Shown: positions 18,354-26,552 of the stretch, piece by piece
Position numbering within the stretch: the stretch's first letter is position 1
Layout of the letters: each line of letters opens with the position of its first letter
NCBI RefSeq assembly: GCF_024345575.1
Contig: NZ_JAGQBJ010000003.1
Location: 62,001 to 126,000, forward strand
Source: Cyanobium sp. Morenito 9A2
GTDB taxonomy: Bacteria > Cyanobacteriota > Cyanobacteriia > PCC-6307 > Cyanobiaceae
Length of the DNA stretch: 64,000 nucleotides
Direction of reading: 5' to 3'
Made by a program: the position numbers and the translations under genes
Notes under the pieces: generated by a model
What the model saw: the letters and a program-made list of their open reading frames with translations, nothing else
What the model was told of the DNA's origin: nothing
The model's database searches: none

Positions 18354-18821
18354 TCAGAAGGTCGCCCGCTCCTCCGCAGGCCACTGAAGGGTGCTGAGTT
18401 GGCTGAGCCAGGCCTCCAGCTCAACACCATGCTGGAACTCCTCCTGGTGCAGTTGACGGAAGAAGTCCGTGTTGTCACGGTCGCTGATCAGAAGACAGAA
18501 GCGCACCGCCTCGGTGTAGTGCTCCACCAGGGAGGACTCAAGGGCTGCGTTCTGACGGAGCAGTCCCACCAGATCGCCCGCCGTGGTGACCGGCCGCAGC
18601 TGGGAGGCAGCGGGGGCCACCCCAAAGGAGAGCATGCGTTGCACCAGACGCTCGGCATGCTGCATCTCCTCGACGGCTTCGTGGCGAAACCGGCCGGAGG
18701 ACTCTCTGTCACCCCAGCGGTCAGCCAGGGCGGAATGGGTGACGTACTGCTGAACGGCCGAAAGCTCGAGGCTCAGGGCCCTCCCGAGGAAGGCCAGCAC
18801 ACGGGGATGAACGGCCATCAT
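18354..18821 (-). CDS. Bacterioferritin-like di-iron protein in the carboxysome cluster
   Basis: 155-aa four-helix protein. Possible ferroxidase ligands are E19 (SLELSAVQQY), E52 and H55 (EEMQHAERL), E95 or E100 (ESSLVEHYTEAV), and E128 and H131 (EEFQHGVEL), so the di-iron centre looks complete. Similar ferritin-like genes occur in alpha-carboxysome loci of other bacteria; their role is not settled. It lies between csoS1E (5 bp upstream) and ndhF4. Two ATGs are adjacent; either could start it. No haem-ligand methionine is obvious in the Bfr position, so I use the broad name. Confidence 0.82.
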   Translation of the reverse strand: MMAVHPRVLAFLGRALSLELSAVQQYVTHSALADRWGDRESSGRFRHEAVEEMQHAERLVQRMLSFGVAPAASQLRPVTTAGDLVGLLRQNAALESSLVEHYTEAVRFCLLISDRDNTDFFRQLHQEEFQHGVELEAWLSQLSTLQWPAEERATF

Positions 18822-18826
18822 TGCTT

Positions 18827-19477
18827 TCAGAGCCGGCGCAGGGCGTCGCTGGCGACAAGCACGGGCTCCACTTCGCTATGGGGGCGGGCAATGATGTGGG
18901 CCGCCACCAGACCATCGCCGACCCGCTCACAGGCATCAGCGCCGGCACGAACCGCGGCATTCACGGCGCCGGTTTCACCACGCACCATCACGGTGACGTA
19001 ACCACCGCCCACGAATTCCCGCGCCACCAGGGTGACTTCCGCGGCCTTGGTCATGGCGTCGGCGGCCTCGATGGCGGGCACCAGACCACGGGTTTCGATC
19101 AGGCCGAGGGCGATGCCTTGATGGGTGGGAGCCATGGGAAAGGGGGTGGGGGTGGAGGAAGGACGGATGGGGGTGGAGCTGCCACCTGTGCTCGCGCCGC
19201 TGGCTGAGCGGGCGGTGGAGGCCCGGGCTGGAGTGCTCCGGGTGGGGGGGGCGGACTTGGCGCTGGTGGTGCGAGCCGCTGGGCGAGCCGAGGCCGCCGC
19301 CGCCGCCGTTGTCGCCACGGGGACGGCTGTGGCCTCGACAACGTTGGGCCCAGCGGCCTTGGCCTCGGGAGGCGTTTTGGGCGGGGCCGGGTCGGGCGCC
19401 GCCGGCAGGGCCTTGGGGCCGGCAGGCGGAGTAACGGCTTTTCGGGAGCTGACGGGACGGGAGCGTGGGGTGGCCAT
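18827..19477 (-). CDS. csoS1E: CsoS1E-like BMC-H shell protein with long N-terminal extension
   Basis: Hexamer-forming carboxysome shell protein. Residues ~118-210 are a standard BMC domain (ALGLIETRGLVPAIEAADAM, FVGGGYVTVMVRGETGAV, AHIIARPHSEVEP), almost the same as CsoS1A. The first ~114 residues are a low-complexity Pro/Ala/Ser/Thr-rich tail with scattered basic residues. CsoS1E of this architecture is described from some marine and freshwater alpha-cyanobacteria. An internal ATG at 19135 would give a plain BMC-H, but the bases upstream of it are pyrimidine-rich with no ribosome site. It lies 36 bp downstream of csoS4B. Confidence 0.86.
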   Translation of the reverse strand: MATPRSRPVSSRKAVTPPAGPKALPAAPDPAPPKTPPEAKAAGPNVVEATAVPVATTAAAAASARPAARTTSAKSAPPTRSTPARASTARSASGASTGGSSTPIRPSSTPTPFPMAPTHQGIALGLIETRGLVPAIEAADAMTKAAEVTLVAREFVGGGYVTVMVRGETGAVNAAVRAGADACERVGDGLVAAHIIARPHSEVEPVLVASDALRRL

Positions 19478-19513: not shown

Positions 19514-19765
19514 TCAGCCGTCTGGCGTCCAGTGGTCGATGATGCCGGCGATGGTGAGGTCGGTGAAGATCTCAGGGTTTTCGCAAGCAAAGCGGGCAGC
19601 GGAGCCACTGGCTGTGAACACCCAGTTGCCCGGAGAGGCGCCCACCGGATCCACGGCCACGCTTGTTTTCCCCTTGCTGCTGCGCAGCACGCGCAGGTTC
19701 ATGTGACCAAGGCCGTCCACCCGTTGGGTGCAGGTGATCGAACCTGTGACCTGCATGATTTCCAT
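19514..19765 (-). CDS. csoS4B: Carboxysome vertex protein CsoS4B (BMC-P)
   Basis: 83-aa pentamer-forming protein that caps the vertices of the icosahedral shell. VTGSITCTQRVDGL at the start, VDPVGASPGNWVFTASGSAAR in the middle and TDLTIAGIIDHW at the end are BMC-P landmarks. The start (MEIMQVTG) overlaps the csoS4A stop by one base; a second ATG three codons on is possible. Together with csoS4A it completes the vertex pair of an alpha-carboxysome. Confidence 0.94.
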   Translation of the reverse strand: MEIMQVTGSITCTQRVDGLGHMNLRVLRSSKGKTSVAVDPVGASPGNWVFTASGSAARFACENPEIFTDLTIAGIIDHWTPDG

Positions 19766-20139
19766 CAGCGGGTTCCCCCGCTGGCGGGCGCATGGTTGCT
19801 GTCAGCTGTTGGCCCTTCGGCCATTGGCGTATCGATTGTTGCGGTGGTGGTCGTCGCTGGGGCCTTTGGCGTTGACGTAGGTGCTGGTTTGTCGGCGTTG
19901 GGATCCCAGTAATCGATGATCCCGACGATGGTCAGATCACTGGGGTATGACTTGCTGCCGGCCGCCTCCCGGGCCGCGGAGCTGCCCACGCAGATCACCC
20001 AGTCACCGGGGATGCAACCCACGGCATCGACGGCCACTTTCTGGGTGCTGCCATCGAGAACCACTTGCAGGTGTTTGTGCTCGAAACCTGGGATGCGGTT
20101 GGTGGAGACCAGCGGCTTAAGGACCTGGCAGATCAGCAT
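19765..20139 (-). CDS. csoS4A: Carboxysome vertex protein CsoS4A (BMC-P) with C-terminal tail
   Basis: Residues 1-80 are a BMC-P domain (MLICQVLKPLVSTNRIPGFE, VDAVGCIPGDWVICVGSSAA, DLTIVGIIDYWDP). Another ~44 residues follow, a Thr/Ala/Pro-rich tail ([19 protein letters not shown]) with no fold that I recognise. CsoS4A is usually about 80-90 aa, so this protein (124 aa) is unusually long. The frame is clean: the stop overlaps the csoS4B start by one base, so the tail is not a missed gene. Starts one base after the csoSCA stop. Confidence 0.93.
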   Translation of the reverse strand: MLICQVLKPLVSTNRIPGFEHKHLQVVLDGSTQKVAVDAVGCIPGDWVICVGSSAAREAAGSKSYPSDLTIVGIIDYWDPNADKPAPTSTPKAPATTTTATIDTPMAEGPTADSNHAPASGGTR

Positions 20140-26174: not shown

Positions 26175-26489
26175 TCAGTCCTTGCCGCCGAGGAAGTTGC
26201 TGCTGCTACCCAGGGCAGGCTCCACTTCGCGGTGGGGGCGGGCAATGATGTGGGCGGCCACGAGGCCATCACCAACGCGCTCACAGGCATCGGCACCGGC
26301 GCGGACGGCGGCGTTGACGGCGCCGGTCTCACCGCGCACGAGAACGGTGACGTAACCGCCACCGACGAATTCACGACCGATCAGGCGCACTTCGGCGGCC
26401 TTGGTCATGGCGTCGGCCGCCTCGATTGCAGGGACGAGGCCCCGGGTTTCGATCATGCCGAGGGCGATGCCCATGGTTTCGTTAGCCAT
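26175..26489 (-). CDS. csoS1A: Major carboxysome shell protein CsoS1A (BMC-H)
   Basis: 104-aa hexamer that tiles the shell facets. The BMC domain has ALGMIETRGLVPAIEAADAM, FVGGGYVTVLVRGETGAV and AHIIARPHREVEPAL. The start chosen (MANETMGIALG) gives the normal family length; an in-frame upstream start would add 15 unrelated residues. It is the first gene of the main cso operon. Only this plain BMC-H copy is present; CsoS1D and CsoS1E supply the variants. Confidence 0.96.
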   Translation of the reverse strand: MANETMGIALGMIETRGLVPAIEAADAMTKAAEVRLIGREFVGGGYVTVLVRGETGAVNAAVRAGADACERVGDGLVAAHIIARPHREVEPALGSSSNFLGGKD

Positions 26490-26552
26490 TGCCTGCTCCT
26501 GGAAGGGGGGGGTGGAAGGTTCGTTCGTCACCATGGTCCTGCGCTTACCCCC

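Follow-up and report, generated by a model that had tools for sequence, protein, structure and literature searches.

CsoS1E proteins with an N-terminal extension have been described since at least 2015; in the accessible text of that description the extension measures 80–100 aa and is assigned no function, and CsoS1E is reported to be absent from high-light strains (PMC4499774). In Cyanobium, the extension is described as being of about 80 residues and predicted to be unstructured. All nine operon proteins, CsoS1E included, are reported there from purified carboxysomes by mass spectrometry; the CsoS1E hexamer is presented as a model only, and a co-evolution model places CsoS1E around pentamers (PMC10689251). 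The CsoS1E literature found by full-text search, in the portions accessible, makes no mention of a conserved motif, of an internal start or of the side to which the arm faces. The analysis reported here adds three features that lend themselves to testing in a cultured Cyanobium strain: a conserved motif, an outward direction predicted for the arm, and a second start, likewise predicted.

The csoS1E gene studied lies in a stretch of 64,000 nucleotides from Cyanobium sp. Morenito 9A2, hereafter the window. A first-pass annotation had placed the gene correctly, and ORF and translation assign it to the minus strand (Table 1). The protein contains a PF00936 match at residues 123–199 (E 2e-25, 89 bits, Pfam cut-off 24.5) and belongs to the BMC-H group, having a single BMC domain above the curated cut-off. 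Residues 121–208 are identical to the CsoS1A of the window at 80 of 88 positions, so that the BMC part had rightly been called nearly CsoS1A. The earlier identification as CsoS1E is also upheld, as the protein combines a CsoS1A-like BMC domain with a 114-residue arm and is encoded in the cso operon of an alpha-cyanobacterium. The genes follow each other on the minus strand as in a Cyanobium-type cso operon: csoS1D (from 29765), csoS1A, cbbL, cbbS, csoS2, csoSCA, csoS4A, csoS4B, csoS1E and a ferritin-like gene, the cso names being assigned from gene order and from Pfam families (CsoSCA, CsoS2, BMC, two PF03319 pentamer proteins, and the Rubisco large and small chains). The source genome has three BMC matches in total.

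Table 1. Coordinates of csoS1E, its parts and its neighbours in the window.
Feature	Position	Strand	Details and basis
Ferritin-like gene (bacterioferritin), carboxysome-linked	18354..18821	-	PF00210; begins 5 nt after csoS1E stop
csoS1E	18827..19477	-	216 aa; ATG at 19477, stop 18827-18829; ORF and translation, Pfam
BMC domain and tail, residues 121-216, C-terminal Arg-Arg-Leu	18830..19117	-	RR counts in nonredundant CsoS1E proteins
Internal ATG (Met115)	19133..19135	-	Placed where CsoS1A has its N-terminal MA; candidate start of a 102-aa armless form
C/U-rich unstructured 40-nt leader of internal ATG	19136..19175	-	MFE 0.0 kcal/mol; purine 0.10 over last 30 nt
Disordered arm, residues 1-114	19136..19477	-	71% P/A/S/T; 14 K+R vs 3 D+E; net charge +11
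PKALPAAP (AKALPAA type), residues 21-28	19394..19417	-	De novo motif search; window site score 11.9
csoS4B, pentamer gene	19514..19765	-	PF03319, E 3e-23; 36 nt upstream of csoS1E

Among the matches listed, the solved chains nearest to CsoS1E are of the CsoS1 type (E down to 6e-47), and none extends into the arm beyond residue 109. Solved structures of CsoS1E itself are missing from these matches, the best of which, chain 4ox8, bears CsoS1A residues. Two other genes of the operon deserve a comment. The CsoS1A frame (26175-26534, minus strand) opens at 26534, its likely start being the ATG at 26489, which follows AGGAG and gives MANETMGIALG. CsoS4A (19765-20139, minus strand) bears a C-terminal tail of 46 residues, rich in Thr, Pro and Ala and the longest among the relatives compared; the tail was considered as carrier of a shared motif, but none was seen in it by eye.

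Relatives were collected by a family-wide search, which also picks up CsoS1A and matched at least 139 of 151 genomes. From the matches listed 115 regions were taken, matches cut by contig ends being left out. The 116 loci with a BMC match yielded 112 usable arms, that of the window included; the four dropped were L049 (frameshift), L051 (N stretch), L097 (contig edge) and L148, which is CsoS1A. Starts were moved by hand at L042, L052, L087 and L111. From 80 further loci CsoS1E was obtained in 70, L164 being excluded for having no ATG as long start; these loci partly repeated earlier genomes and were thinned by k-mer overlap. At L049, a deletion within C-rich sequence has seemingly shifted the arm out of frame and left the BMC domain and the internal ATG intact; this may be real or a fault of the assembly. 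In L164, the arm frame is open upstream of the BMC domain, and another start codon would be required if the arm is made. Relatives occur in records named Cyanobium, Synechococcus and Prochlorococcus. In a CsoSCA tree covering 109 of the 112 loci, the clade of the window, where csoS1E is accompanied by a ferritin gene (50 arms), and a clade with Prochlorococcus (62 arms) form the two sides of one branch with support 100/98. Beyond the family, identity is at most 60% among the matches listed, a few of which lie in longer ORFs of 339–360 aa.

A disordered Pro/Ala/Ser/Thr arm dotted with Arg and Lys had been proposed, and its composition (Table 1) and predicted structure agree with this: AlphaFold2 gave pLDDT values per 10-residue block of 39–55 in the arm and of 70–91 at residues 121–200 (44 aligned sequences). 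In the family the arm varies from 56 to 203 residues (112 loci). Its net charge is positive in every nonredundant arm, 58 of 58 in the window's clade and 61 of 61 in the other, the median being +11 at the 50 ferritin-linked loci and +8 at the 62 others, with no value of zero or below. Against a relative of the same genus (L133), the arm has a dN/dS of 0.45 and the BMC part one of 0.034; the arm value was below 1 in 9 of 11 pairs, hand-picked by eye, and 1.0 and 1.27 in the remaining two. The arm is protein-coding and under selection, and a spurious ORF or a frame open by chance is ruled out by dN/dS and by the presence of arms at 112 of 116 loci. Among the matches listed, 11 genomes of one genus (g18) have one CsoS1-type match, which is CsoS1A, and no CsoS1E match. 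These genomes are in keeping with the reported absence from high-light strains and show that the arm is dispensable for having a carboxysome.

The direction of the arm can be predicted from CsoS1A, both termini of which are described on the concave, cytosol-facing side (PMC10938918); in alpha-carboxysome mini-shells the shell proteins are described as concave-out (PMC10484944). As CsoS1E is a close homologue of CsoS1A, the arms lie most likely outside the shell, facing the cytosol, if the orientation of CsoS1A is carried over. The binding to Rubisco or CsoS2 contemplated in the first-pass annotation is thereby weakened, as termini facing the cytosol make binding inside the shell unlikely; it would require an inverted hexamer or a threaded arm. 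An inward scaffold for Rubisco, CsoS2 or other acidic cargo would nevertheless suit the positive charge of all nonredundant arms, and the disordered N-terminus of CsoS2 is reported to bind Rubisco in the alpha-carboxysome (PMC10484944). Against it stand the orientation just described and the scarcity of CsoS2-like motifs, [IV]TG being found in 1 of 119 nonredundant arms and an N-type pattern, improvised from the window's own CsoS2, in none; these same counts led us to reject the arm as a relative of CsoS2. We consider the inward scaffold improbable.

At the other end of the protein, an RR pair stands among the final four residues of 57 of 58 nonredundant CsoS1E proteins in the window's clade and of 56 of 61 in the other, giving a conserved Arg-Arg-X end (18830-18838 in the window), and of 0 of 2 CsoS1A proteins, the comparison comprising two distinct CsoS1A sequences only. 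A relationship of the arm with McdB, for which a C-terminal tryptophan is described as invariant, was rejected as well: among 119 proteins the C-terminal residue is W in none and W, F or Y in 15, and nearly all end in RRx.

Short conserved motifs are found within the arm. A de novo search of width 8 was run on nonredundant arms after removal of the first 8 and last 10 residues. It returned AKALPAAA in the window's clade (LLR 242, versus 73–83 in 12 shuffled sets) and QTVDVSPv in the clade with Prochlorococcus (LLR 615, versus 96–103 in shuffled sets), the shuffled controls taking no account of common descent. Sites scoring above 8 were present in 38 of 48 arms for the AKALPAA type (7–10 in each of four shuffled sets) and in 53 of 55 for the QTVDVSP type (5–8). 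A threshold of 3 fails to separate real arms (47 of 48 and 55 of 55) from shuffled ones (42–47 and 46–54). The motif has no fixed place (residues 18–108 in the window's clade, 11–47 in the other) and is written with varying synonymous codons. Besides the motif, the ferritin-linked clade conserves MATP at the N-terminus, a stretch rich in Gly and Pro, and the MA that directly precedes the BMC domain.

Simple patterns give a similar picture. A Val-Asp-Val type pattern, widened after one locus (L089) failed a narrower version matching 61 of 62, occurs in all 62 arms without a ferritin neighbour (shuffles: mean 0.7, maximum 3) and in 0 of the 50 arms with ferritin. Of the latter, 25 carry [KR]AL[PSA][APV] (in shuffled arms 0.4 on average and at most 3), and 38 carry A[LIV]P with two residues out of A/P/S/T behind it (in shuffled arms 5.6 on average and at most 13). 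The Val-Asp-Val type is found in 10 of 10 loci labelled Prochlorococcus. The clade label of L149–L228 was set by ferritin or by a missing Val-Asp-Val pattern, which makes absence of that pattern partly circular at those loci and leaves the count on the 112 loci unaffected. One of them, L228 (Synechococcus sp. SB0662_bin_14), has an arm of 80 residues with no good site of either type (best score 0.7).

What emerges resembles a short linear motif carried on a flexible spacer, kept tightly in the Val-Asp-Val clade and more loosely in that of the window. To our reading, a conserved short motif within a drifting CsoS1E arm is a new element, and its conservation suggests a candidate docking role. 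The arm could also act as a polymer brush, a bulky and soluble Pro/Ala/Ser/Thr coat that would keep carboxysomes apart with no specific partner. Composition, disorder and the drifting arm length agree with a brush, as does the lack of a strong KALPA site in 10 of the 48 arms from the window's clade; McdAB, which prevents aggregation elsewhere, is described as absent from alpha-cyanobacteria (PMC12918739; PMC8262871). A brush, however, has no need of a motif with strong sites in most arms of both clades, and we think it unlikely.

The distribution of the motifs follows that of the ferritin gene, which raises the question of whether arms of the KALPA type bring the adjacent bacterioferritin to the shell. 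The complete separation of Val-Asp-Val arms from ferritin-linked arms would fit recruitment, as would the closeness of the genes, which are separated by exactly 5 nt at 39 of the 53 loci having ferritin. This recurrent gap suggests coupled translation of csoS1E and ferritin. The split, however, corresponds to a single branch of the tree and the correlation to a single event, for which reason co-occurrence was rejected as independent evidence. Bacterioferritin is moreover described as an arrival with the operon that the marine clades have lost (PMC1904183). At E 1e-6, a ferritin match was absent in 19 of the 21 genomes tested, the two positives being the window's genome and another of its clade. 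Recruitment of ferritin by the arm thus appears very improbable.

The first-pass annotation had seen no sign of an internal start and had taken the long form as probably the only product, on the grounds that the region upstream of the internal ATG is rich in pyrimidines. That richness is real (Table 1), but the conclusion drawn from it fails, as the long start is equally pyrimidine-rich and equally devoid of a Shine-Dalgarno sequence. Median purine shares are 0.25 before the long start (50 loci), 0.19 before the internal ATG (n=44) and 0.50 before Met codons inside the BMC part (n=153), and a Shine-Dalgarno energy of -5 kcal/mol or below is reached at 0 of 50 long starts and 0 of 44 internal ATGs. 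In a comparison of 16 genes of the window, from which CsoS2 and the inner CsoS1A start were left out, CbbS and CsoS1D also have pyrimidine-rich, non-Shine-Dalgarno leaders, and CsoS4A and CsoS4B Shine-Dalgarno-like ones. For two cyanobacteria, genes independent of Shine-Dalgarno sequences are described as more weakly structured over the 40 nt that precede the start, and the reference list of the same paper names a study on such S1-dependent initiation on cyanobacterial rbcS (PMC6847405).

The internal Met itself is conserved. Of the nonredundant arms, 50 of 58 in the window's clade and 3 of 61 in the other have a Met among their final 8 residues, upstream starts having been left unmoved at a few loci (L149–L153) in this count and in later analyses. 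It stands exactly six residues before GIALG at 44 of the 50 ferritin-linked loci. The purine share is 0.17–0.22 at -30 to -13 nt from the internal ATG and climbs to 0.35 at -12 to -7 nt; before the long start it is 0.21–0.28 at -36 to -7, and over the whole arm 0.42. Composition in residues does not account for the low value: same-arm windows matched for the share of Ser, Thr and Pro gave 0.39 versus 0.23 at the leader, which was lower in 32 of 32 arms, these being the arms out of 50 that have such windows. Ser codons of the TCN and AGY types number 91:16 in the leader versus 173:136 in matched windows.

Folding energies point in the same direction, with the reservation that C/U-rich RNA is inherently unfolded, so that the leader measures overlap, and that the sequences compared share descent. 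In the 49 of 50 arms used for these tests, the 40 nt before the internal ATG have a median MFE of -0.4 kcal/mol versus -12.1 elsewhere in the arm, and are weaker in 48 of 49; the value at the long start is -1.3 kcal/mol. Controls gave -10.8 versus -11.2 in the eight Met-less arms of the clade and -5.7 versus -4.2 in the other clade. Upon redrawing synonymous codons from the same gene with residues fixed, the real leader folds more weakly than the redrawn mean in 45 of 49 arms and falls within the weakest 5% in 20 of 49. The latter occurs in 0 of 61 arms of the other clade, at 1 of 46 sites 40 codons upstream, and in 1 of 8 Met-less arms; 6 of these 8 fold more weakly than the redrawn mean. In the window's own leader, codon choice is not significant (share 0.29). 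The excess of third-base pyrimidines is broad, covering codons -21 to +13 with no sharp peak before the internal ATG; being broader than a leader, it might reflect another constraint on the junction. A Rho-utilisation site at the C-rich tract was also considered; cyanobacteria are not known to have Rho.

A conserved internal ATG preceded by an unfolded leader, partly written in synonymous codons, is the second new element of this locus. Judging from these features, the start at Met115 is probably used in the window's clade, and armed and armless CsoS1E products may arise from one gene. Should only the long form be made, Met115 and the pyrimidine stretch would be relics of an ancestral csoS1 start and leader absorbed into the frame. 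Such an origin agrees with Met115 being placed where the CsoS1A chain begins (aligned with MASETMGIALG), with the near loss of the Met in the other clade, and with the breadth of the pyrimidine codon bias. In an arm that drifts this fast, a relic would be expected to decay, yet the Met is largely retained, and synonymous codon choice keeps the leader unfolded; where the Met is missing, the site is folded (MFE -6.0 or below) in 7 of 8 arms, L048 being the exception that retains an unfolded stretch. We consider a relic somewhat unlikely. Provided that the internal start is real, two CsoS1E products ought to be reckoned with in models of the shell and in heterologous carboxysome constructs.

Taken together, we tentatively favour the reading of an outward, basic, multivalent docking arm, the dose of which would be set by two starts in the window's clade, and we rate the chance of the whole of it at somewhat short of even. 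According to this reading, csoS1E would encode a hexamer-type carboxysome shell protein, the arm of which would project from the concave, cytosol-facing side as a flexible, basic and multivalent tether. The arm would carry a short candidate docking motif, which is of the KALPA type here and, in the clade with Prochlorococcus, of the QTVDVSP type. Ribosomes would also start at Met115 in the window's clade and so add an armless, CsoS1A-like subunit, and the two starts would thereby set the number of arms per hexamer. The partner that would fit best is an outer-surface one, for example a factor for the spacing or positioning of carboxysomes where McdAB is absent. The absence of McdAB from alpha-cyanobacteria, as described (PMC8262871; PMC12918739), leaves room for another way of placing carboxysomes, and the outward arm is, speculatively, a candidate part of carboxysome arrangement in these organisms. 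The more specific proposal, that mixed hexamers with tunable outward arms and clade-specific motifs form a tether replacing spacing or positioning of the McdAB type, we regard as quite doubtful.

Among known systems, the CsoS1E of Cyanobium PCC 7001 and others is of the same kind, with one BMC domain, an N-terminal extension and a place in the cso operon, the window's arm of 114 residues being somewhat longer. In the Pdu metabolosome, one shell gene gives extended and short forms, PduB and PduB', as csoS1E may do; PduB is a BMC-T protein. The start codon of PduB' is reported to have been mutated separately (PMC9132943), and the PduB extension is described as an encapsulation signal (PMC12108088). 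That extension works inward, whereas the CsoS1E arm is likely directed outward, its second start being predicted. In beta-carboxysomes, CcmM, a Rubisco-binding scaffold and not a BMC protein, likewise comes in a long and a short form made from one gene, as proposed for csoS1E. Both CcmM forms are named in a title cited by PMC8262871. CsoS2, a disordered and motif-bearing partner of the shell, resembles the arm in disorder and in the possession of a motif; it is described as binding the inner shell surface (PMC10484944), whereas the CsoS1E arm lies most likely outside, and the near absence of [IV]TG and N-type patterns from CsoS1E arms also sets the two apart. The protein of the window belongs to a known family, and with its motif and likely second start it is a more interesting variant than the one described.
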